Position numbers and translations under genes: made by a program. Shown here piece by piece: positions 5,538-22,272 of a stretch of 56,974 nucleotides of DNA. The notes under the pieces were generated by a model that saw only the letters and a program-made list of their open reading frames with translations, did not search any database and was not told where the DNA came from. Location: positions 1-56,974 of the forward strand of contig JACPSH010000051.1 of the NCBI GenBank assembly GCA_016193395.1. The letters are read 5' to 3'. The DNA comes from Gammaproteobacteria bacterium (GTDB taxonomy: Bacteria > Pseudomonadota > Gammaproteobacteria > Eutrophobiales > Eutrophobiaceae). Each line of letters begins with the position of its first letter. Position 1 is the stretch's first letter.

Positions 5538-6497
5538 TCAGGAAGGCACTTGCGGACGATACGCCTTGGGCGAAATCGCAAATTCCTGTTTGAACCGCTT
5601 GCTGAAGTGGGTGGCATCGCTGAATCCCCAGAACATGGCGATATCCGCAAGCTTTCTGTGGAGCATCTTCGGATTGGAGATGTCCCTGACGCAATGCTCG
5701 AGCCTGTTGCGGATAATGTACTCGGTAACCGTCTCCTCGGACGATTTGAAGAGCCAGTGCAGGTAGCGAAGCGACATATTCGTCGCACGCGCGATCGACG
5801 CGGGAGAAAGTGACGGCTCCCTGATGTTCGCGTTTATGTATTCCTTGACGAACCGCAATTGCGTCTCACGCAGAGGAACGGCGCCGCTGTCGTCACTGAT
5901 TTCCAGCGCGTTTGCAAGCATACAGATCGTCGCGTCTATGAGCGCGTAATCATCGTTGCAACCGGATTTGAATGCTACGCCGGAAAGGGATTCAATGTAA
6001 TTCGCGAGTAATCTTCCATCACCTGAATGACCGTCAATCCATCGTCTTATGGACGACCAGGATTTGGGAAACCAGCAACGGAACCGCTGCAACGGCAGTA
6101 CGACGGAAATCTTGTGCAGTCTCTGTTCGACGTTGAAATGCATCGGTTTGGTGCTGTCCCAGACGAGCAAATCACCGGCATTGAGCAATATCTGCTCGCC
6201 ATTGAAATTAATGGACTCGCGTCCCTGAAGGACCATCTGTACCGTCAGGGTTTCCCCTGCATCGGAGGCTATGTCTCGTCGACAGCGAGTGGCAGAGCAC
6301 GGATCACAGGTACACTCGACGATTTTGAGGAGATTGTCGTCATAGGACTTGACGGCCGCAAAAAAACCCGCGTTGGAGATCGGGATGGCGTTCCACCGAC
6401 CGAAGGCTTCGTTCAGCTTGCCCACCCAGGCGTCGTAACGGGAGACGATCGGACAATCTTCGCTGGTCCAGTTGACAACATGAGGATGTTGCGCCAT
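5538..6497 (-). CDS. AraC-family transcriptional regulator
   Basis: This 319-residue regulator has a beta-rich N-terminal sensing half (residues ~1-200, FNGEQILLNAGDLLVWDSTKPM, the AraC_binding_2 type found in FeaR/XylS-like activators of aromatic catabolism). A C-terminal double helix-turn-helix follows (residues ~210-319: FVKEYINANIREPSLSPASIARATNMSLRYLHWLFK; LADIAMFWGFSDATHFSKRFKQEFAISPKAYR). Both HTHs look intact. It is divergent from the TonB receptor across a 438-bp gap, the usual arrangement for an activator of the neighbouring operon. Codon use is more AT-rich than in the 13-55 kb region. The effector is unknown. Confidence 0.9.
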   Translation of the reverse strand: MAQHPHVVNWTSEDCPIVSRYDAWVGKLNEAFGRWNAIPISNAGFFAAVKSYDDNLLKIVECTCDPCSATRCRRDIASDAGETLTVQMVLQGRESINFNGEQILLNAGDLLVWDSTKPMHFNVEQRLHKISVVLPLQRFRCWFPKSWSSIRRWIDGHSGDGRLLANYIESLSGVAFKSGCNDDYALIDATICMLANALEISDDSGAVPLRETQLRFVKEYINANIREPSLSPASIARATNMSLRYLHWLFKSSEETVTEYIIRNRLEHCVRDISNPKMLHRKLADIAMFWGFSDATHFSKRFKQEFAISPKAYRPQVPS

Positions 6498-6935: not shown

Positions 6936-9338
6936 ATGAAGCCGAAGATCATTGCGTCTTTAATCTATATCTGGGCAATGTACCTGCCAGCGGGGAATGC
7001 ACAGGAACAACCTACACACACCGCAGTGGTAGGTCTGGAAGAGATTGTCGTTACGGCCCGTAAGAGAGAGGAATCTATGATGGAGATTCCGGAGTCCGTC
7101 AGCGCCATGTCCAGTTTCGAAATGGAAATGGCCAACGTGGACCAAATAAATGACATCGGTGGCCGGATTCCAAACCTCACGCTTACGACGCGGGCCGATG
7201 GCTACCCCAATGTCACAATTCGTGGCGTCGGTTCGTTCGGCAATACGCTGGGTGTGGGATTCTTTGTGGATGGAGTGCAGGTGATTTCGGATGCATCGGT
7301 GAAATTCGGAGACATAGAAAGACTGGAGGTACTCAAAGGTCCCCAGGGCACGCTCTATGGCGGAAGCAATGTCGGCGGGGCGATCAAGCTGATCACCAGG
7401 CGGCCGGACCTCGGGCAACGAGACGGGAATGTGATGGTTACGGTGGGTGACCAGGATACGCGCAATTTCCAGGGCTCGGTCAGCATGCCTCTTGTCAAGG
7501 ACCGGCTTGCCGTCCGCATTTTTGGTTATCACGAGGAGGACGACGGCTTTCTCAAGGCGAGCAATTCAACTCGACTGAATGGCGAATCCAATACCCACAT
7601 TCCGCTGCCGGGGGGCGGGACGACCGACGCCTTCTGGCCCACCAATAACGTGTGCAACGCGCCGTTCGCAACGCCGACGAACTGCGACATTCCGGACATC
7701 GCGCTGAAATGGCGCAGCCGCCCGAATGAGCGCGACGAGAACGGGATTCGCTTGTCGGTGCTCGCCCAGATCACGGACAACATCGAGTTCTTCGGCACGG
7801 CCCGTTATAACGAAACGGACACGGGCGCCAACAATTGGCGCTTCGAAGATCCGGAGCAACTGACCTTCAGTCATGAGCGAGATCTGACCTTTGCCGGCAG
7901 GCTCGAGCGGCGGACCTATGCGGGCACCTGGGAATTCAATTGGGACGCTGGCCCCGTCCTGCTGACCTATCTGGGGTCTTTCACCGACTTTCAGCGTTTC
8001 GAGACCACAGATCTGGACGTCTCAGTCGAAGTGGGCTTCGATCTGTATCGCCCGGAATGGACGAAATTTCCCACGCACGAACTGCGCATAACGTCGACGG
8101 ACGAAGGCCCGTTCAAATGGTTGGGCGGTCTTTACACATCCAAGAAGCGAAACGACTGGGATACCTTCGCGAATTTCTACAACACGACCAGCGTGCTGAC
8201 CGGGGCCCCATTCGGTCCGGGCGGCGCTCCGCTTGCCCCTGGTGCGCTGGCGATACTTGACACAGTGCTGGGAGATACGTCGTTGCCGCCGACGCTTGCC
8301 GACGAACAATTGGTCAGGATCTATTTTCCGTTCGAGAACAGATACAGGGAAATTCAGCACATCGGCGCATTCGTCAATGGCAGTTATGAGTTTCTGGATC
8401 ACTGGGAACTGAGCTTGGGTATACGCGCCGACTACTGGTCGTCGGATACCGAAGATCGAGATGCCGCCCTGTATGGAACCGGGGTGCCGTACCTGAAGCA
8501 GAGCGAAACCGAGTACCTGCCGAAAGCGTCGCTGTCCTACACCTTCGATGACGGAACGTTAGCGTATTTCACTTTTGCCAAGGGATACGAGCCGGGAGGA
8601 TACAACCTTTACAATCCGGTGGGCGTGCCGCTGCTGAATCCCTTCACGGAGGAGGAGGCCACCAGTTACGAGCTGGGCGTCAAGGCCAGCCTGTTGGAAG
8701 ATACCTTGGAAACGAACCTCGCCGGCTTCTACATCGACTACAAGGACAGGCAGTTCGAAATTCAGCAGCAGATCGCCATCGGTGGTATTGTCGAAAATAT
8801 CCTCAACGCCGGCGATTCGAGGCAATATGGCGCCGAGTTCGAATTTCACTGGCAGCCGATTGAACACCTGCTCGTCACGGGCGGCGCGGGTTGGGTCCAT
8901 GCCGAGTTCAAGGAAGGCAGTCAGGTCATCAACGTCAACAGCGGCGTTACCGCGCTGGACGAGGACAATTTCCCGCCCTGGATCAACAAGTACAGCTATA
9001 ACCTGTCAGGTCAATACACCCATCCTCTGACGGACAATCTGACGCTGAACGCGAGACTGGATTGGTTGGGAAAGGGCCCGTTCTGGTTCAACATGGAAAA
9101 TACTGCGAAGAATCCGGGTTGGGACGTGGTCAACGCCCGGATTGCAATCGATCTCGGCGAAACCTGGACGCTGGGATTCAACGCGGAGAATATCTTCGAT
9201 GAGGATTATTATGTCGACGGGTCGATATGGCCGGGTGACGCAGTGCCGGGTACGCCGGCACCCAGTTTCGATCCCGTGATTGGAACGCTGGGTCAGCCAC
9301 AAAGACTGACCGTGGACTTGCGCGCACGATTCTGGTGA
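6936..9338 (+). CDS. TonB-dependent outer membrane receptor
   Basis: This 800-residue receptor has a signal peptide (MKPKIIASLIYIWAMYLPAGNA), a TonB-box-like EEIVVTARKREES, and a plug domain (residues ~45-160: IPNLTLTTRADG, TIRGVG, GFFVDGV, IERLEVLKGPQGTLYGGSNVGGAIKLITRRP). A 22-strand barrel follows, ending LRARFW with a terminal aromatic residue as expected for BAM insertion. The plug ends typically, but GG-S-N replaces the usual G-R-N. TonB-ExbBD-powered import of a scarce ligand is the expected role. Position between an AraC regulator and the BKACE/MoxR/VWA/NicO genes suggests uptake of that pathway's substrate or of a metal complex. The ligand cannot be read from sequence. Confidence 0.93.
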   Translation: MKPKIIASLIYIWAMYLPAGNAQEQPTHTAVVGLEEIVVTARKREESMMEIPESVSAMSSFEMEMANVDQINDIGGRIPNLTLTTRADGYPNVTIRGVGSFGNTLGVGFFVDGVQVISDASVKFGDIERLEVLKGPQGTLYGGSNVGGAIKLITRRPDLGQRDGNVMVTVGDQDTRNFQGSVSMPLVKDRLAVRIFGYHEEDDGFLKASNSTRLNGESNTHIPLPGGGTTDAFWPTNNVCNAPFATPTNCDIPDIALKWRSRPNERDENGIRLSVLAQITDNIEFFGTARYNETDTGANNWRFEDPEQLTFSHERDLTFAGRLERRTYAGTWEFNWDAGPVLLTYLGSFTDFQRFETTDLDVSVEVGFDLYRPEWTKFPTHELRITSTDEGPFKWLGGLYTSKKRNDWDTFANFYNTTSVLTGAPFGPGGAPLAPGALAILDTVLGDTSLPPTLADEQLVRIYFPFENRYREIQHIGAFVNGSYEFLDHWELSLGIRADYWSSDTEDRDAALYGTGVPYLKQSETEYLPKASLSYTFDDGTLAYFTFAKGYEPGGYNLYNPVGVPLLNPFTEEEATSYELGVKASLLEDTLETNLAGFYIDYKDRQFEIQQQIAIGGIVENILNAGDSRQYGAEFEFHWQPIEHLLVTGGAGWVHAEFKEGSQVINVNSGVTALDEDNFPPWINKYSYNLSGQYTHPLTDNLTLNARLDWLGKGPFWFNMENTAKNPGWDVVNARIAIDLGETWTLGFNAENIFDEDYYVDGSIWPGDAVPGTPAPSFDPVIGTLGQPQRLTVDLRARFW

Positions 9339-9519
9339 GCGCGTAGCGCCGGTTGCAGATACGGACCGGTTCGACATCCGATCCGTCCGGAACGATTGCA
9401 CTAATGGCAGGGTCGACTTGCCGTGAAGAACAAGAATTCTCGATGCACATTCAGTAGATTCCCGCACATCCACGAAGTCCGCCGCCCTTGGCGGCCGAGG
9501 CGATGATTTGGGGGCGTTC

Positions 9520-10560
9520 ATGGCAAAGCGCGATAAAGTCAACTGGAAATATATTGAAGAACTGAAGAAATCCGAGGAATTCAAGACACATTGGATTCCT
9601 TACGGGCTTCCCGAGATCGTCGATCCTTTCACGTCGAAGTACGGCGACATCGAGGTGTATCCAAAGTGGGATGTGTCCGAAAAAGTCGTCATTTCCCAGA
9701 CGATCAACGGCGCGTTCTACAGCAAGCGGGCAAATCCTAACATCCCCGTATCTCCGGACGAGATTATCAAGTCAGCCAGGGAGTGTGCGCTCCTCAACCC
9801 AAGCACTGTGCACGTCCATGTTCGTGATAAACAGGGGTACAATGTGCTGGATCCGGAGCTTTTCCACCGTTGCATCGACCCTGTGCGGGAGGAGTTCTCG
9901 CTTCCGGTATATGACGGCTGCATGGTCCCGTTCCAGGAGGGCGAATGGGATCGAATGGTCACCGTACTCACCGACCGCTTGCTCGAGGTGACGCCGGTAA
10001 ACACGACTGCCTGCTATTGCGGCGATACACTGTTTGCCAAACCGCCTCATGTGATGATCGAGAAAACGCGCCTGTGCCAGGAATTGGGAGTCAAGCCACA
10101 GGTGGCGGTGTATTCGGATGGGGACGTCGATAATGCGCACCGTTACCTGATCAAGACCGGGCTTCTGGAGAAGCCGTATTTCTGGATCATCCTCGCCACT
10201 CTCCCCGGCGGCAGTCCGATGCACAACCCCAGGCAGATGGTCCACACACTCATGCATCTTTGCGAGCTGATATATGACATCGACCGGGATTCCGTCATCG
10301 TCGTGTGTGCGGCAGGACGGGCCTCTTCCTATCTCGCGGTTCTGGCCATGTTGCTCGGACTGCATGTGCGCGTGGGCATGGAAGATACGATATGGGAATT
10401 GCCCCACAAGGATGCGCTAATCAAGTCCAACGCGGAATGTTTCAGAAAATACAAACTCATCGCGCAACTCTTGGGTCGTGAAGTGGCGGACGGAAACGAG
10501 TATCGCGAACTGATTGGCCTCCCGGTCCGCGACGAAGCGGGCAGGTCGGCCAGGGCGTAA
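9520..10560 (+). CDS. BKACE-family (DUF849) beta-keto acid cleavage enzyme, divergent with N-terminal extension
   Basis: BKACE enzymes are TIM barrels that use a divalent metal to cleave a beta-keto acid with acetyl-CoA, giving acetoacetate and a new CoA ester. Diagnostic parts are KVVISQTINGAF (strand 1), NPNIPVSPDEIIKSARECA, the metal-binding HVHVRD (residues 98-103), and RVGMEDTIWELP near the C-terminus, where the Glu is the usual further metal ligand, then LLGREVADGNEYRELIGLP. At 346 residues it is longer than the usual 270-310 because of about 50 extra N-terminal residues (VNWKYIEELKKSEEFKTHW). Start: ATG 9520 with gggggcg upstream; a TTG at 9508 is in frame. The next three genes suggest metal delivery to this enzyme. 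The substrate is unknown. Confidence 0.85.
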   Translation: MAKRDKVNWKYIEELKKSEEFKTHWIPYGLPEIVDPFTSKYGDIEVYPKWDVSEKVVISQTINGAFYSKRANPNIPVSPDEIIKSARECALLNPSTVHVHVRDKQGYNVLDPELFHRCIDPVREEFSLPVYDGCMVPFQEGEWDRMVTVLTDRLLEVTPVNTTACYCGDTLFAKPPHVMIEKTRLCQELGVKPQVAVYSDGDVDNAHRYLIKTGLLEKPYFWIILATLPGGSPMHNPRQMVHTLMHLCELIYDIDRDSVIVVCAAGRASSYLAVLAMLLGLHVRVGMEDTIWELPHKDALIKSNAECFRKYKLIAQLLGREVADGNEYRELIGLPVRDEAGRSARA

Positions 10561-10633
10561 CGGGCCGCCGCGGTTTGCCCAGTCTTTCCGTGACGATCAA
10601 CTTGAACAAGCTGTTGCACTGACAGCCGGACGC

Positions 10634-11599
10634 ATGCGCGAGTTATCTGAACGGATAGGCCGGCGACTGGTCGGCCGGCACAGGGAAGTCATGGTCATCC
10701 TTGCGGCCCTGCAAACCGGACGCAACCTGTTTCTGGAAGGTCCCCCCGGTACTTCGAAGTCCACGATCCTGAAGGCAGTAGTCGAAGAACTCGGCCGCCC
10801 ATTCTACTGGGTCACCGGAAACAGCGATCTGACCGCGACTAAGCTGCTCGGTTATTTTGATCCTGCCCTGATCCTGTCGAAAGGGTACCGGCCGGAAGAT
10901 TTTGAATATGGTGCGCTGACGCTCGCGATGAAAGAAGGCGGAATCCTGTACGTGGAGGAATTCAACCGACTTCCGGACGATACAAGCAATGCCTTTGTGA
11001 CCGCTATGTCCGAACGGGCCATACCGGTTCCGAGACTGGGCACGGTGAGGGCCCAGCCGGAATTCGGCATCGTGGCCTCGCTCAATCCATATGACGATGT
11101 CGGCACCTTGCGCATTAGCCGTGCGCTGCGTGACAGATTCTGCTCCCTGTGGATGGACTATCAGAGCAAGGACGAGGAAAAGGAGATTGTGTCGCGGCAG
11201 ATCGCCGGTATGCCCGTTCCCGCTTGGCTAGACGTTCCCGCCCTCATCGATGTCGCCGTGGAATCCTGCCGCCGTACCCGGACCCATGAAGACGTCCATC
11301 TGGGCGCTTCCGTGCGAGGCGCGATCGACATGACGCTCGTTGCGATGCAGTTGCTCGCCAATCATAAAGGCGGAGCCGGAATGGAGAATCGTTCCGGTCT
11401 GATCCGAATGGCAGCCCACGCGGCCCTGCGCGACAAGATTCGCCTGAATGACGTCAGCGAGCGCAGGGCAGATGATGTCATAGACGACATCTGGACCGCG
11501 CTGGCGGCTGAGTTGCCAATGGACGCCAACGAGTTCTGGCAGGTGGGTTTGCGGGACGGCGTAAAAAAAAAGCCGGAAGAGATGCGATTGACGTACTAA
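10634..11599 (+). CDS. MoxR-type AAA+ ATPase
   Basis: With the ATG at 10634 this is a 321-residue AAA+ protein. It has Walker A GPPGTSKST (residues 36-44), a Walker B with EE in place of DE (GGILYVEEFNRLPDD), sensor-1 VASLNPYDDVG and an arginine-finger region SRALRDRFC. MoxR ATPases such as NorQ and CbbQ work with a VWA partner to insert metal or remodel an enzyme's active site. A TTG start at 10514, overlapping the BKACE gene by 47 bp, would add 40 residues; neither start has a strong ribosome site. The VWA partner follows 17 bp downstream, so the pair is almost certainly co-expressed. The likely client is the BKACE enzyme just upstream, by inference. Confidence 0.87.
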   Translation: MRELSERIGRRLVGRHREVMVILAALQTGRNLFLEGPPGTSKSTILKAVVEELGRPFYWVTGNSDLTATKLLGYFDPALILSKGYRPEDFEYGALTLAMKEGGILYVEEFNRLPDDTSNAFVTAMSERAIPVPRLGTVRAQPEFGIVASLNPYDDVGTLRISRALRDRFCSLWMDYQSKDEEKEIVSRQIAGMPVPAWLDVPALIDVAVESCRRTRTHEDVHLGASVRGAIDMTLVAMQLLANHKGGAGMENRSGLIRMAAHAALRDKIRLNDVSERRADDVIDDIWTALAAELPMDANEFWQVGLRDGVKKKPEEMRLTY

Positions 11600-11616
11600 C
11601 CGGGGACCATCTGCAT

Positions 11617-12672
11617 TTGGCGGAGGGATCGGATGCGCCAACCCGGGTGCAGCATTCTCCAAGGCGAATTCTCACGGCGGCCGAGCAGAGGCTTCTCTCT
11701 CATCATCCAGGCACAGCAGCGGAACACAGGCACAACCTGAACGCCCCGCTGGACCGCAAAACCGACCGCCTCCTGCGCGAAGGGGGGCTCGAAGACGTCA
11801 TTGCCCTGGCCGAGATTGCGCCGGGCCGCGTGGCCGAGGCGATGGCTCGCAACCGGCTCGTGCTCGATCATTTCCACGACCATGACGCGCACGCAAGGCT
11901 CCTGGCCCTTACCTGGGATGCACTCGATCCGGAAATGCGCGCCAGAAACCTCAGGCGCATGCTGATGATGATCCAGAAGATGGCGAGGAAGGTCTCGCCG
12001 GCGGCCCGGAGATACGACGGTGCCGAGGAATCCGTGCCCTACCGGTTTGTCGGGGAAGAACTGGATGTGGACGCGTCGATTGACAGGCTGGTCGCAAACG
12101 CAAGGATTCAGCACGGCAAGTTCGCAGCGACCCGTCACTCGGACTTTTACGTAATGGAACGGTCGCGCCGCCCCCGCGCCTTTGCCGTGATGCTTGACGA
12201 GAGCCGATCCATGAGAGGATCGAAATCCGTGGCGGCAGCGCTGGTCGCCGCAGTGCTGCTTCTAAATCTAAGACCGGAGGATGCGTACGCAGTAATCGGA
12301 TTCGCGGAGCATGCGCGCGTCATCCGGTCCATGGGACAGCGCCGGGACCGGGATCGGACGCTGCACGATATTCTTGAGATGAGGCCGAGCGGATGCACAG
12401 ATGTCGCCGCGGGTCTCGAATCCGGTCTGATTGAATTGCACAAGGTCGGCACGTCGCAACGCATCGGCATCCTGGTCTCCGACGGCTGGCTGAATACGGG
12501 ACATGATCCGATGCCCCTGGTGCGGCGTTTCAAGCGGCTGCACGTCATCGAACTGCCCGGAGGCGATCACAAAGTGTGCGCCGACATTGCGGCGGCCGGG
12601 AGGGGTGTCATGACGGCGGTACGGGATGTGTCGCAGGTTCCCGCGGCAGTGCACCAATGCCTGGCCGCGTGA
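11617..12672 (+). CDS. VWA-domain protein, MoxR partner (NorD/CbbO/CoxE-like role)
   Basis: This 351-residue cytosolic protein has a helical N-terminal half of about 180 residues. A C-terminal von Willebrand A domain begins FAVMLDESRSM with an intact MIDAS (Asp194-x-Ser196-x-Ser198). The later MIDAS residues appear as SGCTDVAAGL and LVSDGW. There is no signal peptide or membrane segment. The start is taken at TTG 11617 with gggga upstream; GTG 11647 is an alternative. MoxR-VWA pairs act as chaperone machines for metal-centre insertion, for example NorQ/NorD on nitric oxide reductase and CbbQ/CbbO on Rubisco. The target here is unassigned but should be encoded nearby. Confidence 0.83.
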   Translation: MAEGSDAPTRVQHSPRRILTAAEQRLLSHHPGTAAEHRHNLNAPLDRKTDRLLREGGLEDVIALAEIAPGRVAEAMARNRLVLDHFHDHDAHARLLALTWDALDPEMRARNLRRMLMMIQKMARKVSPAARRYDGAEESVPYRFVGEELDVDASIDRLVANARIQHGKFAATRHSDFYVMERSRRPRAFAVMLDESRSMRGSKSVAAALVAAVLLLNLRPEDAYAVIGFAEHARVIRSMGQRRDRDRTLHDILEMRPSGCTDVAAGLESGLIELHKVGTSQRIGILVSDGWLNTGHDPMPLVRRFKRLHVIELPGGDHKVCADIAAAGRGVMTAVRDVSQVPAAVHQCLAA

Positions 12673-12712
12673 GACTCCTTTCGCTGCGGTCTGATGCCGC
12701 TGGAATACGACG

Positions 12713-13465
12713 ATGCTGGGCATCCTGCTGATCGGCTTCGTCATTGGATTGTGGCATGCATTCGACCTGGACCATATCGGGGCGTTGATAACGTTCGTAG
12801 CCTCGCGGGACTCATCGCCAAGGCGGGCGGTCATTTATGGCGTGTTGTGGGCCCTCGGACACGCCTCGATGCTGATCCTGATGACCCTGCTGACGATCAC
12901 TTTTCACGTGGAGGTCTCGGGAGAAATCGCGTCCCTCATGGAGTTCATGGTTGGCGCATTGCTCGTCGTGCTCGCGCTGGACATGCTTCGCAGGATGGGA
13001 TCCATGACACTCCACTCGCATCATCACCCCCACCATGGCAATTCCATGCATGACCATTTCCATGTGCATTTTCAGTTGCAGGCGCACGGACATGATTCAC
13101 ATGCGCACCCGCACGTGGTCATGGATGGATATCATGTCAGGGCGTTGCTGGTCGGTCTGATGCACGGGATGGCTGGTTCGGCGGCACTGATGTTGCTCGT
13201 GGCGGGCACCGTGGCCTCGGCAGGCATGAGAATGCTGTACGTGGTGTTTTTCTCCCTGGGCGCGATGGCAGGAATGGCGGCGCTGTCGCTCGTCATTTCC
13301 ATGCAATTGCGGCGTTCGGCGCGGTGCTCGCTTGCACTTGCCGCAAGGGCACGTGGATGCGCTGCAGTCGTTATCCTTGCCATCGGGTTGTTCCTGATGT
13401 CAACGACGGATATCGCACCTGCAGCCGTGCAGGAATTCGCCGTGGACCTGGCGCACTGGCGTTGA
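12713..13465 (+). CDS. NicO/NiCoT-like nickel/cobalt permease with His-rich loop
   Basis: This 250-residue membrane protein has about six hydrophobic segments. The first carries HAFDLDHIGA (His15-His21), close to the NiCoT signature HAxDADHI that lines the metal path. A cytosolic loop at residues 101-134 holds about sixteen histidines with few other charged residues, the typical metal-sensing or storage loop of Ni/Co transporters and UreH-like proteins. It follows the VWA gene by 40 bp on the same strand. Its neighbours suggest it supplies a transition metal to the BKACE enzyme or to a MoxR/VWA client. Direction and metal (Ni, Co or Zn) cannot be read from the sequence. Confidence 0.82.
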   Translation: MLGILLIGFVIGLWHAFDLDHIGALITFVASRDSSPRRAVIYGVLWALGHASMLILMTLLTITFHVEVSGEIASLMEFMVGALLVVLALDMLRRMGSMTLHSHHHPHHGNSMHDHFHVHFQLQAHGHDSHAHPHVVMDGYHVRALLVGLMHGMAGSAALMLLVAGTVASAGMRMLYVVFFSLGAMAGMAALSLVISMQLRRSARCSLALAARARGCAAVVILAIGLFLMSTTDIAPAAVQEFAVDLAHWR

Positions 13466-13553: not shown

Positions 13554-13710
13554 AAGGAAGCTCTGAACAAGTCCGTCCTGGACTTGTCAGAGCACGGAAA
13601 ACGAAAAGTATGATTTTCGTTTTCCTTCATTTTCCAATCGCTTAGGCGATTGGAAAATGGCCATACGTCCATGTATGGCGGGAACCTCTGAACTTGTTCA
13701 GAGGTTCCCT
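13554..13710. repeat. Five-hairpin palindromic element with 19-bp terminal inverted repeats
   Basis: This 157-bp element is bounded by aaggaagctctgaacaagt (13554-13572) and the inverted acttgttcagaggttccct (13692-13710), 16 of 19 positions matching. Between and including the ends lie five consecutive hairpins: 13560-13593 (stem 7+7), 13596-13625 (perfect 12 bp), 13628-13659 (perfect 14 bp, loop ttag), 13661-13678 (6 bp) and 13680-13709 (perfect 14 bp, loop tt). The last overlaps the IclR stop codon. It separates two convergent operons, so it can also act as a bidirectional terminator. It looks like a MITE or complex REP unit. Confidence 0.85.
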
Positions 13711-14488
13711 AAACCTTCAGTGTCGCCTGGATCTCGGCGGCGGCCTTTTTCAGGACAGGCAGGAACTTCCTGACCATCGTTTCGATGGAGACGGTCGCGG
13801 CGTTCGTGCTGATGTTGATAGCCGCCACGACGTGATTGGCTGGATCCCGCACGGGCACGGCCAGCGACCGCAGTCCTTCTTCGAGTTCCTGGTCGACGAG
13901 GGCGTAACCCTGTTCGCGGATCTTGACCAGTTCCTTGCGCAAGGCCGACTTGCTCGTCACTGAAAACCGCGTCCGCGGTTCGAGCATGAGACCGCTCAGA
14001 AATTGCTCGCGTTCCTCTTCATCCTTGAAGGCCAGCAGCACGCGGCCCAGGGAGGTGTAGCTGGCGGGCAGGCGGGTGCCGACCTGGATGCCGGGCATGA
14101 GGATGCGCCGTGTGGAAGATCGCGCGAGATAGACGATGTCCGCCGTGTCCAGCACGGCGAGCGATGAGGATTCCCCGGTCTGCTCCGTGACCTGCTTCAG
14201 ATAGGGCTGCGAGCGTTCGGAGATCGGCATGGAAGCCATGAACGCGTAGCCGAGTTCCAGCACCTTGGGCGTGAGCCGGAACATGCGGTGGTTCTTCCGC
14301 ACGTAGCCCAGCTCCACCAGCGTCAACAGGAAGCGCCGCGCGCCGGCCCGCGTCAGCCGGGTCCGCCCCGCCACCTCGGTCAATGTCATCTCCGGGTAGT
14401 CGGCGTTGAACGCGCGCAGCACGCTCAATCCGCGGGCGAGCGATCCCACGAAATCGCGGATCTTTGCGCCTTGCGCGGACGATTCCAT
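13709..14488 (-). CDS. IclR-family transcriptional regulator (PcaR/PobR-like)
   Basis: This 259-residue IclR regulator has an N-terminal winged helix (residues ~12-70: FVGSLARGLSVLRAF, MTLTEVAGRTRLTRAGARRFLLTLVELGYV). The C-terminal effector domain follows (LPASYTSLGRVLLAF, EEGLRSLAVPVRDPANHVVAAINIS). The sequence is close to the PcaU/PcaR/PobR branch that controls aromatic acid catabolism. It is the last gene of the E2-E1alpha-E1beta operon, 3 bp after E1beta, so it should regulate that operon autogenously. A perfect 8+8 palindrome at 17931-17952 upstream of E2 is a good candidate operator. Its stop codon lies inside the five-hairpin element. Confidence 0.92.
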   Translation of the reverse strand: MESSAQGAKIRDFVGSLARGLSVLRAFNADYPEMTLTEVAGRTRLTRAGARRFLLTLVELGYVRKNHRMFRLTPKVLELGYAFMASMPISERSQPYLKQVTEQTGESSSLAVLDTADIVYLARSSTRRILMPGIQVGTRLPASYTSLGRVLLAFKDEEEREQFLSGLMLEPRTRFSVTSKSALRKELVKIREQGYALVDQELEEGLRSLAVPVRDPANHVVAAINISTNAATVSIETMVRKFLPVLKKAAAEIQATLKV

Positions 14489-14491
14489 GAA

Positions 14492-15499
14492 TTACGCAGC
14501 CATGACTTCGCGCACGGCCGCCTCGATCTGGCCGGTCGACGGCACGTAGAGTTTCTCCAGCACCGGCGACGCCGGCACGGGCGTGTGCGGAGCCGAAATC
14601 TTCCTCGGCGCGGCCTTCAGGGAAGCCAGCGCATTCAGCGCCACCACGCTGATGACTTCGGAGGCGAGATTGCACATCGGGTTGGCCTCGTCGACCGCCA
14701 CCAGCCGGCCGGTGTGCGCGACGCTCTCGACAATCACGTCCGTATCCAGCGGGGAGGTCGTCCTTGGATCGACTACCTCGACGGAGATGGTGCCCTTGAG
14801 CTTGTCCGCGACCTGGTTCGCGAGCTGCACCATCCGGCCGAAGGCGACGATGGTGACATCCGCGCCTTCGCGCGTAATCTTGGCCTCGCCGAAAGGGATG
14901 GTGTAGGGCTCATCCGGGACTTCATCCTGCGTGTCATATAGCAACTTGTGTTCGAGGAAGATGACCGGGTCGTCGTCGCGAATGGCCTGGGCCAGCAGTC
15001 CCTTGGCGTCATACGCGCAGGAGGGCAGCACGACCTTCAGGCCGGGGATATGCGTGAAGATCGGCCACAACGCCTGGGAGTGCTGCGCCGCGCACACGAG
15101 GCCGGCGCCGGTCATCGCCCGGATCACCATCGGCGTGCGCGCGTTGCCGCCGAACATGTAGCGGAACTTGGCGGCCTGGTTGTAAATCTGGTCGAAGCAG
15201 ACGCCGAAGAAATCCACGAACATCATTTCCGCGACCGGGCGCAAGCCGGTCAGCGCGGCGCCGGCGGCGGCGCCCATGATCGCGCTCTCCGAGATCGGCG
15301 TATCGATGACGCGCCTCTCGCCGAATTTCTGGTAGAGGCCGGCGGTCACGCCCATCATGCCGCCCGAGGATCCCGGCTTCTTGGCCGATCCGCCGTGACC
15401 GCCGACGATGTCCTCGCCGATGAGAATGACGGTCGGGTCGCGCTCCATTTCCTGGTGCAGCGCTTCGTTGATGGCCTGTCTGAAGGTTTTGACGCTCAT
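14492..15499 (-). CDS. acoB: 2-oxoacid/acetoin dehydrogenase E1 beta subunit (AcoB-like)
   Basis: This 335-residue E1beta carries VILIGEDIVGGHGGSAKKPG, the TPP-site IDTPISESAIMGAAAGAALTGLRPVAEMMFVDF, and the C-terminal transketolase-type domain (VEVVDPRTTSPLDTDVIVESVAHTGRLVAVDEANP). It pairs with the E1alpha encoded 15 bp upstream to form the thiamine-diphosphate decarboxylase of a dehydrogenase complex. Length and wording match acetoin dehydrogenase (AcoB) better than pyruvate or branched-chain E1beta, but the substrate is not proven. No E3 (dihydrolipoamide dehydrogenase) gene lies in the window, so the complex must borrow a housekeeping E3. Confidence 0.88.
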   Translation of the reverse strand: MSVKTFRQAINEALHQEMERDPTVILIGEDIVGGHGGSAKKPGSSGGMMGVTAGLYQKFGERRVIDTPISESAIMGAAAGAALTGLRPVAEMMFVDFFGVCFDQIYNQAAKFRYMFGGNARTPMVIRAMTGAGLVCAAQHSQALWPIFTHIPGLKVVLPSCAYDAKGLLAQAIRDDDPVIFLEHKLLYDTQDEVPDEPYTIPFGEAKITREGADVTIVAFGRMVQLANQVADKLKGTISVEVVDPRTTSPLDTDVIVESVAHTGRLVAVDEANPMCNLASEVISVVALNALASLKAAPRKISAPHTPVPASPVLEKLYVPSTGQIEAAVREVMAA

Positions 15500-15514
15500 C
15501 CTGGCATTCCTTTC

Positions 15515-16483
15515 TCAATACGAAACGTAAACATCGGTGAGCAGATCTTCCGGAGTCGGATGCGGCGCGACCTTCGCCGCCTCCACCGCCTCATCGATCA
15601 GGGCCAGCACGTCCAGGTCGACCCGGTCCATCTCGTGCGCCTCGAGCTTCTTGTCCTCGCGCACGCGCTCGCGAAACAGCTTCAGGCAATCCTTGCGCTC
15701 GCGCAGCTCCTTGATTTCGGTCAGATCGCGATAGGCCTGGGCGTCGCCCTCAAAATGACCGCGCCAGCGCGGCGCGACGCACTCGATGGTGGAGGGTCCT
15801 GCGCCGCTGCGCGCACGCGCCGTGGCTTCGCCCATCGCGTCGTAGACCGCGAAGAAGTCCGTGCCGTCGACCATGACCGCGGGCATGCCGAAAGCCGCGG
15901 CGCGGCTCGCGATATCCTTGGCACCGAGGTGATAGGCGATCCCCGTGTGCTCGCCATAGCCATTGTTCTCCACCGCGAAAATCACCGGCAGCTTGAGCAC
16001 CACCGCGAAGTTCATGGACTCGAATACCGTGCCCTGGTTGGTAGCGCCATCGCCGCCGAAGGTGACGGACACGTTGGGCTTGCCCAGTGTTTTTGCGGTC
16101 AGGGCCGCACCGAGGGCAAGCGGCGCGCCGGCGCCGACGATGGCGTTCGCGCCCAGCATGCCTTTCGAGATATCGGCAATGTGCATGGAGCCGCCCTTGC
16201 CCCTGCACAGGCCGTCACGCTTGCACCAGAGTTCGAGCGCCATCTTGCGCACGTCGCAGCCCTTGGCGATGCAATGGCCGTGGCCGCGGTGGGTGGAGGA
16301 GATGTAGTCTTCATCCGTCAGGTGCATGCAAATTCCGGTGGCGACCGCCTCCTGCCCGAGGTAGAGGTGCGTGAATCCGGGCACCGTGCCGGCCTCGAAT
16401 TCGCGCGAGATCCGCGATTCGAATTCGCGGATCGTCTTCATCAGGCGGTAGGCGCGCAAGAGTTCGCTTTTGCTCAGTTCCAC
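15515..16483 (-). CDS. acoA: 2-oxoacid/acetoin dehydrogenase E1 alpha subunit (AcoA-like)
   Basis: This 322-residue E1alpha has the ThDP fold: STHRGHGHCIAKGCDVRKMALEL, GKGGSMHIADISKGMLGANAIVGAG, and the thiamine-diphosphate motif GGDGATNQGTVFESMNFAV ending near ENNGYG. It ends ADLLTDVYVSY-like, as in AcoA. The C-terminal GHFEGDAQAYRD is also characteristic of acetoin dehydrogenase alpha. With E1beta it decarboxylates or cleaves the substrate and passes the acyl group to the E2 lipoyl arm. It sits between E2 and E1beta; a strong hairpin (16520-16545) lies between it and E2 and may tune the relative amounts. Confidence 0.9.
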   Translation of the reverse strand: MELSKSELLRAYRLMKTIREFESRISREFEAGTVPGFTHLYLGQEAVATGICMHLTDEDYISSTHRGHGHCIAKGCDVRKMALELWCKRDGLCRGKGGSMHIADISKGMLGANAIVGAGAPLALGAALTAKTLGKPNVSVTFGGDGATNQGTVFESMNFAVVLKLPVIFAVENNGYGEHTGIAYHLGAKDIASRAAAFGMPAVMVDGTDFFAVYDAMGEATARARSGAGPSTIECVAPRWRGHFEGDAQAYRDLTEIKELRERKDCLKLFRERVREDKKLEAHEMDRVDLDVLALIDEAVEAAKVAPHPTPEDLLTDVYVSY

Positions 16484-16519
16484 GATCGGCCTCCTCGTTG
16501 ATTCTCGGGCATCGCATCA

Positions 16520-16545
16520 GGGGTCGGAGCGTATGCTCCGACCCC
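16520..16545 (-). terminator. Intercistronic hairpin between E2 and E1 alpha
   Basis: A perfect 11-bp stem ggggtcggagc / gctccgacccc with a 4-nt gtat loop lies in the 68-bp gap between the E2 stop and the E1alpha start. No T-run follows on either strand, so it is more likely an mRNA-stabilising or partial-attenuation hairpin than a full terminator. Confidence 0.6.
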
Positions 16546-16551
16546 GCATTG

Positions 16552-17877
16552 TCAGGACATCGATTCCGGCGCTTCAATGAATCTCGTCAGGTGTTGCAGG
16601 AAGCGGGCGGCCAGCGCGCCATCGATGACGCGATGGTCGCAGGACAGCGAAAGGGTAAGCATCGTCGCCACCGCCGCCTTGCCGTCGCGCGCCACCGCCC
16701 GCGGTTCGGCGCGTCCGACCGCAAGGACCGCAGCTTGCGGCGGGTTGATGATTGCGTCGAATTGCCGGATCCCGTACATGCCCAGGTTCGAGATCGTCAG
16801 CGTCCCCCCGGCGTATTCGCTCGTTTTCAGCTTGCTCATCTTCGCGCGTTCGGTGAGATCGCGCGTCTCGCTTGCGATCTGTGCAAAGCTCTTGAAGTTC
16901 GCGTTACGGACTATGGGCGTGATGAGCCCGCCATCGAGGGCGACGGCGACGGAGATGTCCGCATTGCGGAAACGGCGGATGACCCCGCCTTCGAACTGGA
17001 TATTGCATTCCGGCACGGCCATGAGCGCCAGGGCGCAGGCCCTGATCAACATGTCGTTCACCGTGATACGCGCATCCGGCGAGGTTTGATTCAAGCGGCC
17101 GCGCAGCGCGAAGAGCGCGTCGACCGATGCATCCGCCACCAGCCGGTAGTGCGGCACGGTCCGTTTCGATTCCTGCAGCCTGCGGGCTATCGTTTCGCGC
17201 ATCCCGGCCATGGGGATTTCGTGCACGATTTCCGGCGCAGCCGTCACGGACTGCTGGCCGGGGGCCTTCGTTCCGGCCCCGGCACCGGTCACCGGCGACT
17301 TCGGCGCAACCGTGCCGCCGGCGGCAATGATGACCCGCTCGATGTCCAACTCGGAAACCCGGCCGTTGCGGCCCGAGCCTTTCACGTTGTTCAAGTTGAT
17401 GCCGAGGCTCTGGGCCATGCGACGCGCGTGAGGCGTGGCCGGTATGCCGGAATCGTCGCCACCCTGTTTCAGGCTGGCAGGGACCTGGGTTTGGGTTTGT
17501 CCCCGCGGCTGTTCCGCGGGCAGGGAAGTCAGGGCAGACGGAGTGCCGGTACCCGCAGTCACTTCGCCTGCTGTGATACCGCGCGTTGGCTGAAAACCGC
17601 TGACGAAGGCATCAATCTCGGTGTCCGCGACGCCGGCTTCCGAGATGACCGCGAGCAGGGCGCCCACCGGCAGCGTATCGCCGATATTCGCGGTCTTGCG
17701 CCGCAGGGTGCCGCCAAAGTGCGTCTGCAGCACGTTCACGATCTTGCTCGATTCGAGCTCGGCGACATCCGCACCTTCCGCGAGGGCGTCCCCTTCCTCG
17801 ACCAGCCAGTTGACGAGAGTCCCTTCTTCCATGGCCATGCCCCATTTCGGCACAGTGAGGGGGATTATTTTTGACAT
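16552..17877 (-). CDS. acoC: Dihydrolipoamide acyltransferase E2 of the acetoin/2-oxoacid dehydrogenase complex (AcoC-like)
   Basis: This 441-residue E2 has an N-terminal lipoyl domain (PLTVPKWGMAMEEGTLVNWLVEEGD, lipoylation lysine in ELESSKIVN near residue 46) and an Ala/Pro/Gly-rich linker. A peripheral subunit-binding domain follows (IPATPHARRMAQSLGINLNNVKGSGRNGRVSELD, ~145-180), then the catalytic domain with HRVIDGALAARFL (the active-site HxxxDG). It transfers the acyl group to CoA. It is the first gene of the operon E2-E1alpha-E1beta-IclR; the upstream gap holds a palindrome suited to IclR binding. Confidence 0.92.
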   Translation of the reverse strand: MSKIIPLTVPKWGMAMEEGTLVNWLVEEGDALAEGADVAELESSKIVNVLQTHFGGTLRRKTANIGDTLPVGALLAVISEAGVADTEIDAFVSGFQPTRGITAGEVTAGTGTPSALTSLPAEQPRGQTQTQVPASLKQGGDDSGIPATPHARRMAQSLGINLNNVKGSGRNGRVSELDIERVIIAAGGTVAPKSPVTGAGAGTKAPGQQSVTAAPEIVHEIPMAGMRETIARRLQESKRTVPHYRLVADASVDALFALRGRLNQTSPDARITVNDMLIRACALALMAVPECNIQFEGGVIRRFRNADISVAVALDGGLITPIVRNANFKSFAQIASETRDLTERAKMSKLKTSEYAGGTLTISNLGMYGIRQFDAIINPPQAAVLAVGRAEPRAVARDGKAAVATMLTLSLSCDHRVIDGALAARFLQHLTRFIEAPESMS

Positions 17878-17930
17878 TTGGAGTCCGCGGACTTCGGAGC
17901 GTCGTGACGCGTACGTCGAACGTTCTTGTT

Positions 17931-17952
17931 ATTGTAACCGTGAAGTTACAAT
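17931..17952. promoter_or_regulatory. Candidate IclR operator upstream of the E2 operon
   Basis: attgtaac and gttacaat form a perfect 8-bp inverted repeat with a 6-bp spacer, about 54-75 nt before the E2 start codon. On the minus strand it abuts a taatat box (17953-17958) that could be a -10. The regulator at the end of this operon is IclR-type and such proteins bind short palindromes near their promoters, so this is the natural candidate site. Confidence 0.5.
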
Positions 17953-18014
17953 ATTAAACAAAAGTTCGCATCAGGTACATTTGCGTGCCGGGAATCGCGG
18001 ACGTGCGTTCCGGC

Positions 18015-18088
18015 CACATTATTTAATGTGCGGGGCCAGCGTACGTGGATCGCGGCCAGCAGGTTGATGCAAAACTCGATTTTGCATC
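18015..18088. repeat. Two palindromes: cacatta-tt-taatgtg and gatgcaaaa hairpin
   Basis: 18015-18030 is a perfect 7-bp inverted repeat; its 14-mer cacattatttaatg recurs exactly at 43973-43986. 18066-18088 is a hairpin with stem gatgcaaaa / ttttgcatc; the preceding agcaggttgatgcaaaa (18058-18074) matches 16 of 17 positions at 21067-21083 in the element downstream of the MetE-like gene. Both palindromes lie in the gap between the LigM-like operon and E2. Confidence 0.6.
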
Positions 18089-18104
18089 TTTGGCTAGAGA
18101 GCAA

Positions 18105-18132
18105 CGGGGCCGGAGCGCGCGATCCGGCCCCG
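18105..18132 (-). terminator. Strong GC hairpin ending the O-demethylase operon
   Basis: A perfect 10-bp stem, cggggccgga (18105-18114) with tccggccccg (18123-18132), lies 15 bp beyond the stop of the 18148-19524 gene on the minus strand. It lacks a T-run, so it is a terminator-like hairpin and not a textbook intrinsic terminator. Confidence 0.6.
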
Positions 18133-18147
18133 CCGCGGCAGGTCGAA

Positions 18148-19524
18148 TCAGGATCGGCGGTACGAGGTGCGGGCGGCCGCGACGTAGGGGACGGGGCAGA
18201 CGGTTGCGCGGATCTCCACCTGCACGTGGCGCTCGACCGTCGGCTTGGCGGATCCGCCGTCTTCTTCTCCCCAGACGAAGGTGACCTCGGTGCCCGGCTC
18301 GCTGAACTGGGCTTCGACGATCGCGAGGGTGAGCATGGTGCGTTCATTGGCGCTGTAGCCGCACCAGGTCGAGACGCCGATCACTTTGCCGTCCTTCATG
18401 ACCTTGTCGTAGGGAAACATCGAATAGACGGCCGAAGGGAATTCGAAGTACTTCGCCCGGTCGCCCTTCTGGAACATGGTGCCGATGGCGCGTGTAACAT
18501 CTTCGCCGTTCAGTTCCAGCGTGACCTTCCTGCGCCGCGGGTTCCTGGCGATTTTCTCCAGCGCCTCGCGGCCGATGAATTCGTGATCGAACTTGACGAT
18601 CGGCCCGTAGCCCAGGTCCCACGGCGTGAGGTAATAGTCCCCGATATTGTCGGAGTAGAAGCTTCCGCCGAGCGAGGCCACGGCCTCCCAGCCATTCGCC
18701 GGCAGCCACTGCCTGTAGGGTTTCATCTTCTCGCCGGAATAGATCGCGGGCATGGGGGAGGGGATCCAGCCCGATTCCAGCGTGTTGCTGGAATAGGTCC
18801 TGGAACCGGAAAGTTTCAGTCCGAACTCCTGGCCTGCCTCGACGATGGCCGTTTTCACATCCTCGCCATCCGCCCAGGGTCCGAACAGCTCGAATCCCGG
18901 CTGCCCGACCATGCCGTGGCGCAGGGCGCGGACTTTCCTGCCGGCGATGGTGAACGCCGACATGTTGAAGAACTTGACGTCCGGCACCGGCTTGCCCGTT
19001 ACTTTCTCCATGACCTTGAGGGCGTTCGGTCCCTGGATCTGGTAGCGATAGACCTTGCGGACCGCCGGTCCCTGCCGGGCGGCGGAGCGCTCGTCCCTTT
19101 CGAGCTTGGCCTGGTATCCGCCCGTCTCGCAATGGTACTGGACCCAGTTATGCACGGCAGGGCGGCCGACGAGATTGACCAGGTTCTTCTCCAGATGGAA
19201 CAGGATCACGTCGCCGATCACGTAGCCGTCGTCATTGCAGGCGACGAACTGCTTGGCCTTGTCGGGCTCGAAGCCCTTGAAGCTGTTGACGCCGAGGGCG
19301 GTCAGGAGTTTGAGCGTATCCGGCCCTTCAACGTACATATCGGTCATGTGGTAGGACTGGTTGAACAGTATGCAGGTCTCCTGCCAGGCGCGCTGCTCGT
19401 CGCGCCAGTTCGAATATTCCAGCGGCACCACGGGATAGACGTTGGGGCCGGATTGCGAATTGCGCAGCAGCTTCACCGGGCCGCCCGCGGCTTGCATAAG
19501 GTCGTCCAGGTTCCTGTGACTCAT
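18148..19524 (-). CDS. GcvT-fold tetrahydrofolate O-demethylase (LigM/DesA-like), copy 1
   Basis: This 458-residue protein belongs to the aminomethyltransferase (GcvT) superfamily. From memory it resembles Sphingobium LigM (vanillate/3-O-methylgallate O-demethylase) and DesA (syringate O-demethylase) along its length: [115 protein letters not shown] and VWGEEDGGSAKPTVERH. Such enzymes move an aryl O-methyl group to tetrahydrofolate, giving a phenol and 5-methyl-THF. The ribosome site is ggaggagaaacc. It pairs with a paralogue 53 bp upstream, and the pair may split substrates (vanillate-like versus syringate-like). Confidence 0.82.
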   Translation of the reverse strand: MSHRNLDDLMQAAGGPVKLLRNSQSGPNVYPVVPLEYSNWRDEQRAWQETCILFNQSYHMTDMYVEGPDTLKLLTALGVNSFKGFEPDKAKQFVACNDDGYVIGDVILFHLEKNLVNLVGRPAVHNWVQYHCETGGYQAKLERDERSAARQGPAVRKVYRYQIQGPNALKVMEKVTGKPVPDVKFFNMSAFTIAGRKVRALRHGMVGQPGFELFGPWADGEDVKTAIVEAGQEFGLKLSGSRTYSSNTLESGWIPSPMPAIYSGEKMKPYRQWLPANGWEAVASLGGSFYSDNIGDYYLTPWDLGYGPIVKFDHEFIGREALEKIARNPRRRKVTLELNGEDVTRAIGTMFQKGDRAKYFEFPSAVYSMFPYDKVMKDGKVIGVSTWCGYSANERTMLTLAIVEAQFSEPGTEVTFVWGEEDGGSAKPTVERHVQVEIRATVCPVPYVAAARTSYRRS

Positions 19525-19577
19525 GGTTTCTCCTCCGACCGGTTCAACGAACGAGGGCGAACCGCCTCGCGGCCGGT

Positions 19578-21014
<1,437 letters not shown>

Positions 21015-21015
21015 C

Positions 21016-21115
21016 TAACAGGATGTTGAAAAAGCAAAATCCGCCGGGTCGTGCGCCGCACATCCTAGCAGATTGATGCAAAAGTCCGTCCTTGGAGTTT
21101 TGCATCAGCCTGTTA
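21016..21115. repeat. 100-bp palindromic element (taacagg...cctgtta)
   Basis: Terminal 7-bp inverted repeats taacagg (21016-21022) and cctgtta (21109-21115) enclose a hairpin at 21075-21106 with stem gatgcaaaa / ttttgcatc. The core agtccgtcct(t)gga is shared with the first hairpin of the five-hairpin element at 13560-13593. It appears to belong to one family of intergenic repeats marking gaps in this minus-strand block. Confidence 0.65.
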
Positions 21116-21150
21116 ACGCAACGTTCGGCGATAGAAAATTCGATCCGCCT

Positions 21151-22272
21151 TCAACCCCAGACTTCTCTCGCGGTCTCGACGACGAGCCGGAGCTTGGCTC
21201 TTTCCTGATCTTCAGTCAGGTCGTTTCCGTGCACCGAACTCGAAAACCCGCACTGGGGGCTCAGGGCGAGGTGCTCGAGCGGCACGTACTTCGATGCCTC
21301 TTCAATCCGCCTCTTGAGTTCGTCCTTCGACTCGAGCTCCGGCCGTTTTGAAGTCACCAGGCCGAGGACGACGACCTTTCCCCTGGGGACGAGGCGCAGC
21401 GGTTCGAAGTTGCCGGAACGCATGTCGTCGTACTCGAGCAGAAACCGGTCCGCATCGATCTCGTTGAACAGGGTGCGGGCAACGGTTTCGTACCCGCCTT
21501 CCGCCACCCAGGCGCTGCGGAAATTCCCGCGGCACAGGTGAATGCCGATGATCATGTCCTTGGGCCGGTCGCGGACGCAATCGCTGATCAGTTTGGCATA
21601 GATGGATGGAAGCCGCTCCGGATCCTCCCCGATACTGCGGACGCGATCGCGGTGCACCGGATCGCAGAGGTAGGCGAAGTTGGTGTCGTCGAGCTGGAGG
21701 TACCTGCACCCGGCCTCGGACAGCCCGGCGATTTCCTCCCGGTAAATGCGCGCCAGGCCGCTGAAAAATTCCTCGATCTGGGGGTAGGCTGCCATGTCGA
21801 CGCTTTTCCGGCCGCCGCGGAAATGCAGCATGCTCGGCGAGGGAATGCAGACCTTTGGCGTGCGGCGCGTGACGGCGGCAAGGTACTTGAAATCCTCCAG
21901 GGCGATGCCGCCCTCAGGCAGCGACATCCTGCCTGTGACGGCAAGCACCGGCGGCGCAAAATCCACTTCCTCCTTGGCGCCGCGGAACTTGACCTTGTAG
22001 TTCGATTGCGTCGCCTGCACGCCGTGGATTTTTTCGAGGAAATCGACGTGGAAGAGAAAACGGCGGTATTCCCCGTCCGTGATTGCGTTCAGACCGGCGT
22101 CTTCCTGCAGTTTGACCGCGTGCAGGATGGCCTGATCCTCTATTTTCCGAAGTGCAGCGGCGGAAATCTCGTTCTTCTCCCGGCGCGCTCGCGCGTCGAG
22201 CAATTCCGGGGGGCGCAGCAGGCTGCCGACATGGTCGGCTCGGAAAGGAATCGTGTCTTGATGCATCGTCAT
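21151..22272 (-). CDS. Cobalamin-independent methionine synthase II family protein (MetE C-terminal-domain-like)
   Basis: This 373-residue single-domain protein resembles the C-terminal catalytic half of MetE. It has FRADHVGSLLRPPELLDAR, DAGLNAITDGEYRRFLFHVDFLEKI, TGRMSLPEG, CRYLQLDDTNFAYLCD, IGIHLCRGNF (Cys of the HxC zinc site), and LALSPQCGFSS (second zinc Cys). It lacks the N-terminal MetE half, as is usual in this stand-alone family. MetE proteins take the methyl group from 5-methyl-THF. Next to two THF-dependent O-demethylases, the economical reading is a methyl sink that recycles THF. The acceptor is homocysteine or another thiol; which one is unknown. Confidence 0.82.
   Translation of the reverse strand: MTMHQDTIPFRADHVGSLLRPPELLDARARREKNEISAAALRKIEDQAILHAVKLQEDAGLNAITDGEYRRFLFHVDFLEKIHGVQATQSNYKVKFRGAKEEVDFAPPVLAVTGRMSLPEGGIALEDFKYLAAVTRRTPKVCIPSPSMLHFRGGRKSVDMAAYPQIEEFFSGLARIYREEIAGLSEAGCRYLQLDDTNFAYLCDPVHRDRVRSIGEDPERLPSIYAKLISDCVRDRPKDMIIGIHLCRGNFRSAWVAEGGYETVARTLFNEIDADRFLLEYDDMRSGNFEPLRLVPRGKVVVLGLVTSKRPELESKDELKRRIEEASKYVPLEHLALSPQCGFSSSVHGNDLTEDQERAKLRLVVETAREVWG

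Follow-up and report, generated by a model that had tools for sequence, protein, structure and literature searches.

Pairs of a MoxR-class AAA+ ATPase and a VWA protein are widespread, and their clients are established in few cases. NorQD is one such pair and has been established as the activator of an adjacently encoded enzyme (PMC9976466, PMC13036017). CbbQ/CbbO, the Rubisco activase of chemoautotrophs, is likewise a MoxR-VWA system, in this case for a soluble enzyme of carbon metabolism. The locus described here lies in a 56,974-nt stretch of a gammaproteobacterial contig (JACPSH010000051.1, family Eutrophobiaceae; hereafter the window), in which a MoxR-VWA pair follows the gene of a beta-keto acid cleavage enzyme (BKACE). 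It resembles NorQ/NorD in the combination of a MoxR-class AAA+ protein with a VWA partner beside a client, both with intact Walker and MIDAS motifs, and the MoxR profile finds NorQ among its best matches to bacterial proteins in the PDB (68 bits, E 5.8e-18). However, the client of NorQ/NorD is a membrane oxidase, whereas the BKACE is soluble and the MoxR of the window belongs to a separate clade; also, NorD is a 70-kDa protein (PMC9976466), whereas the VWA protein of the window has only 351 residues. CbbQ is matched with 64 bits, but Rubisco is unrelated to BKACE and the activator role of the window pair is putative.

The nearest large group of relatives is found in mycofactocin clusters, where MoxR proteins with 41–51% identity occupy the same place behind an enzyme; the window genome differs from them in having no MftC above the cut-off. 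The words MoxR, AAA, and von Willebrand are absent from the 2011 paper that defined the mycofactocin system (PMC3023750). A sister MoxR-VWA branch is located among MttB genes in corrinoid operons of Firmicutes, which differ by their pyrrolysine/corrinoid chemistry and gave no BKACE match. With Kce and other characterized BKACEs, the enzyme of the window shares the fold, the metal ligands, and an Arg-Glu-Asp motif, to which it adds an N-terminal extension. The preliminary description of the locus knew of no MoxR/VWA pair serving a BKACE, and among the open-licence literature searched, we also found no paper that joins BKACE with MoxR/VWA, or the pair with mycofactocin or MttB.

Profile searches identified five co-directional genes on the plus strand of the window. 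They encode a TonB-dependent receptor (positions 6936–9338, 800 aa; PF00593, 147.5 bits), the BKACE (9520–10560, 346 aa, ATG start; PF05853, 159.8 bits, cut-off 24.8), the MoxR AAA+ ATPase (10634–11599, 321 aa), the VWA protein (11617–12672; PF13519, 38.3 bits; PF05762, 28.3 bits), and a NicO-like permease with a His-rich loop (12713–13465; TIGR00802, 29 bits, below cut-off). Divergent from these genes is an AraC-family regulator on the minus strand (5538–6497; PF12833, 60.1 bits), which is FeaR-like but scores just under the cut-off of the FeaR model (191.6 vs. 199 bits). The preliminary description had placed all six genes correctly. With the starts as assigned, the intergenic gaps from receptor to permease are 181, 73, 17, and 40 bp; the ATG at position 10634 is the likely start of MoxR, because its relatives start there. 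The adjoining region on the minus strand (13709–22272) encodes a PcaR-like regulator, pyruvate-dehydrogenase-like E1/E2 proteins, two O-demethylases of the DesA/LigM type, and a methionine-synthase-like protein, and probably serves the demethylation of lignin-derived aromatics.

In the window, a MoxR gene is followed by the gene of a VWA protein with an intact MIDAS, which is the arrangement typical of NorQD and CbbQO. The MoxR of the window matches AAA_5 (PF07728, 76.8 bits) and PF07726 (40.4 bits), and its Walker A and B motifs are intact. AAA_5 is a far stronger match than the bpMoxR family of MoxR-vWA-beta-propeller ternary systems (PF20030), whose cut-off of 27 bits is only just exceeded (28.5 bits) over merely 56 residues; the protein also remains below the NCBIfam cut-offs of GvpN (71.7 vs. 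266.8 bits) and MadB (32.6 vs. 475 bits). A defence or conflict system was rejected, as PADLOC gave no match and there is no beta-propeller gene among the identified neighbours. In the VWA protein, the DESRS...T...D residues of the MIDAS are present, as had been described, and the single-chain model had a mean pLDDT of 53, too low for a structure search.

The predicted structure of the BKACE (mean pLDDT 90) is a Kce-like TIM barrel that aligns with Kce and other solved BKACEs from about residue 51 onward (Z 33–34; 2y7d, Z 34 over 276 residues). The HVHVRD motif noted previously is present, and the metal ligands H98, H100, and E288 are in place together with R284 and D289, as in zinc-dependent BKACEs. 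Among the aligned BKACEs, H98 is conserved in 40/40, H100 in 39/40, and E288 in 40/40 rows; the retrieval pattern included the motif at residues 282–289, whose full conservation therefore arises partly by construction, whereas H98 and H100 lie outside the pattern. Kce E14 is replaced by Phe66 in the window enzyme. The scores for the NCBIfam equivalogs were all far under their cut-offs (Kce, 136.7 vs. 382 bits; 3-oxoadipate, 82.8 vs. 350 bits; 3,5-dioxohexanoate, 85.8 vs. 430 bits), and assignment of the enzyme to a named activity was rejected for this reason. With its zinc-type ligands, the BKACE would cleave a beta-keto acid with acetyl-CoA to acetoacetate and an acyl-CoA. An acetoacetate-CoA ligase encoded elsewhere in the window (28433–30427, 951 bits) could take up the acetoacetate released by the BKACE.

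The preliminary description had proposed a metal-matured BKACE, perhaps with nickel or cobalt instead of zinc; in this reading, MoxR/VWA insert the metal, which enters via the TonB receptor and the NicO permease. The residues around the metal do not bear out such a replacement; they are those of zinc BKACEs, and the sequence carries no apparent sign of another metal. The N-terminal extension, described as unusual and as a possible docking site for the chaperone, is indeed unusual when compared to Kce and other solved BKACEs but normal within its own subfamily. An extension of 47–60 residues before residue 54 is present in 33 of the aligned BKACEs, and 30 of these 33 have no MoxR/VWA. Hence, the extension of about 50 residues is a subfamily trait and no marker of MoxR clients, and a role as chaperone dock is not borne out.

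The distribution of the operon was assessed by scanning contigs with an alignment of the N-extended BKACEs, after which the window proteins were compared by tblastn with the 48 nearest loci among the matches listed. The genomes were sampled, many of the loci are on MAG contigs with nearby ends, and a simple ORF script predicted the neighbour genes of unannotated loci. MoxR and VWA genes were found beside the BKACE and on its strand, as in the window, in at least three other genomes (3/48 related loci among the matches listed). The gammaproteobacterium UBA2168 (locus L028) has the full order of receptor, BKACE, MoxR, VWA, and NicO, with identities to the window proteins of 36, 86, 72, 65, and 51%, respectively; because the same order recurs there, the arrangement of the five genes is not due to chance. 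A proteobacterial MAG (L029, apparently the same genome as G004) encodes BKACE and MoxR, followed by a VWA protein that is cut at residue 156; the BKACE-MoxR operon (L029:8153–13331) is bordered by transposase and recombinase remnants. The third case is a MAG of Deltaproteobacteria (L035), whose BKACE, MoxR, and VWA proteins are 61, 52, and 36% identical to those of the window. Its BKACE gene has an in-frame TAG in the N-terminal extension (L035:4053–4055), where the sister locus L033 encodes a glutamate; the TAG may represent a nonsense change, a sequencing error, or recoding. Because of this TAG and the shortened VWA protein of L029, damage or misassembly may affect two of the four examples.

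By contrast, MoxR/VWA are absent near 45 of the 48 related BKACE loci (again among the matches listed), and 15 whole genomes with such BKACEs, including Papillibacter cinnamivorans with its three copies, contain no member of this MoxR clade. Apart from that of G004, no further operon was found in the sampled members of the family, class, and phylum of the window organism. The BKACE-MoxR-VWA operon is therefore conserved and older than one lineage, yet rare, and the many loci and genomes without the pair indicate that BKACEs of the extended subfamily do not generally need it. In several anaerobes (L030, L031, and L036) and in L033, the N-extended BKACE adjoins a regulator that appears, by eye, to be of the helix-turn-helix/cupin type and not MoxR/VWA. 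Nevertheless, the retention of the pair behind the BKACE in four genomes from two distant lineages makes a functional link likely, which is in line with the association originally suggested.

The conservation of the gene order thus concerns the three central genes, whereas the full order that includes receptor and permease recurs only in UBA2168. Neither of the two outer genes is found beside BKACE-MoxR-VWA in L035, and insertion sequence genes occupy the expected place of the receptor in L029. Receptor and permease therefore do not hold up as parts of the module and are optional additions to the operon. The receptor of the window, which has a 36% identical counterpart in the same place in UBA2168, is probably concerned with substrate uptake, and receptor and permease of the window may contribute to substrate import and metal handling. 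The His-rich loop reported for the permease is real, and HX4DH is present in both homologs; however, the assignment to the NicO type is weak for the window protein (PF03824, 14.6 bits, under the cut-off of 27.7) and holds for its ortholog in UBA2168 (33.3 bits).

Close relatives of the MoxR were readily separated in a search with the MoxR alignment (about 250–345 bits vs. <100 bits for other MoxRs). Among the sampled genomes, 19 of 246 from actinobacteria and 3 of 129 from Firmicutes contained them; two Rhodococcus plasmids carried them as well. At 19 of 23 actinobacterial loci, MoxR is directly preceded on the same strand by a mycofactocin-linked NDMA-dependent alcohol dehydrogenase or short-chain dehydrogenase (SDR), which ends 14–132 bp ahead of the MoxR match. 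The type of the upstream enzyme was determined with HMMs for representatives (TIGR03989 over cut-off in 2/2 tested, TIGR03971 in 1/1) and with tblastn for the rest; MftC was found in nine of the actinobacterial stretches that were read. At seven loci (L147, L148, L149, L150, L151, L153, and L158), MoxR and VWA are fused in a single ORF of 620–724 aa, which follows the gene of an NDMA-dependent dehydrogenase or a mycofactocin-coupled SDR; in L147 and L148, a further MoxR gene lies between the enzyme and the fusion. The fusions indicate that MoxR and VWA work as one unit.

In Firmicutes, the pair is located among genes for MttB (trimethylamine:corrinoid methyltransferase), a corrinoid protein, and an activase, and no BKACE match was found in these MttB loci. 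In L174, the MttB gene has an in-frame TAG (8867–8869), probably a pyrrolysine codon, and its stop overlaps the ATG of MoxR (9338–9342). In L175, MoxR is instead directly preceded by the gene of a DUF2284 protein, and MttB follows downstream. Although the preliminary description had called the pair dedicated, a specificity for BKACE is at odds with the occurrence of the same clade behind mycofactocin-linked dehydrogenases and among MttB genes.

In a MoxR tree with four BKACE-linked, 24 actinobacterial, and three Firmicutes members (long-branch rows left out), the BKACE-linked MoxRs are monophyletic (support 100/98); their clade is sister to the MttB-linked branch of Firmicutes (99/98) and nested among the mycofactocin-linked MoxRs. 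Clustering with another client family, which the preliminary description had named as a finding against it, thus applies in part: most of the larger clade has other presumed clients, while the BKACE branch remains a clade of its own. The MoxR-linked BKACEs, however, are not a single clade (rejected, AU p = 0.011); the BKACE of L035 is sister to that of L033, which has no MoxR. Either of two events would explain this mismatch: some lineages may have lost the pair, or the pair may have been transferred onto a second BKACE. The lack of monophyly, the rarity of the pair, and the other neighbours of the clade overall would also agree with a pair that joined the BKACE solely through operon assembly or transfer and acts on another protein of the cell. 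We consider this rather unlikely, because the BKACE is the sole gene adjoining the pair in all four genomes, the BKACE-linked MoxRs form one clade, MftC is missing above cut-off in the window genome, and no MttB match was obtained in L028 or L035. A hidden mycofactocin or MttB client in the window genome was rejected on the basis of the missing MftC and the location of the MttB homolog on another contig. This homolog (L177; G000:C41:3952–5337) is an MttB-like methyltransferase without in-frame stop that scores 356 bits, which is below the family cut-off.

The range of neighbours also bears on a role of the pair in metal insertion. That the pair inserts the regular zinc of the BKACE, with the metal unchanged, is suggested by the fact that BKACEs and NDMA-dependent alcohol dehydrogenases are both families of zinc enzymes and by the matches of the MoxR profile to NorQ and CobS. 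But SDRs and pyrrolysine-type MttB are generally known not to depend on catalytic zinc, and many BKACEs occur without the pair, which makes zinc insertion an unlikely function. Delivery of nickel or cobalt is improbable. A NicO-like gene follows VWA at a distance of 40 bp in the window and stands in the same place in UBA2168, a mycofactocin-linked MoxR-VWA fusion has, possibly by chance, a NicO-family permease gene (L149:14615–15364) at a distance of about 4 kb, and NorQD, itself a MoxR-VWA pair, inserts metal (PMC13036017). However, the permease might just as well serve export, the pair of L035 has no NicO or receptor alongside, most related BKACEs lack the pair, the ligands are those of a zinc enzyme, and SDRs, one of the presumed client groups, are generally known to need no catalytic metal.

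Gene order, conservation, intact motifs, and phylogeny instead point to BKACE-MoxR-VWA as a functional operon, in which MoxR-VWA probably activates the client encoded upstream. Since the pair keeps its position behind an enzyme gene, the BKACE is the likely client. Together, MoxR and VWA would form an ATP-driven activator in two parts that serves the enzyme whose gene immediately precedes theirs. If the pair works like NorQ/NorD, the VWA protein would be gripped by a hexamer of MoxR, and the MIDAS metal of the VWA domain would bind an acidic residue on the client; ATP hydrolysis would then remodel the client, which would either be loaded with a metal or cofactor that it binds tightly or be freed from a dead-end state. 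Since the other presumed clients of the MoxR-VWA clade do not share a metal, we would favour such remodelling over a choice of metal as the action of the pair.

The position of the other branches behind dehydrogenases or among MttB genes makes it seem that the pair has changed its clients among BKACE, mycofactocin-linked dehydrogenases, and MttB. This points to a family of enzyme activators, described little so far, whose members may have moved from one client enzyme to another. Somewhat more tentatively than the role at the BKACE, we propose a family of client-swapping MoxR-VWA activators located behind the enzyme they serve, be it a mycofactocin-linked nicotinoprotein, a pyrrolysine methyltransferase, or a BKACE. 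Because the clade mostly holds one place behind a changing client, its clients can be named from gene order, and it allows one to ask what unites such different client enzymes. For the mycofactocin branch, tests are easy in actinobacteria, where nicotinoprotein dehydrogenases have already been studied, and the answer would extend to the BKACE operon. If the proposal is true, such pairs would serve to activate difficult catabolic enzymes in general and would not be the metal chaperone of a single respiratory complex.
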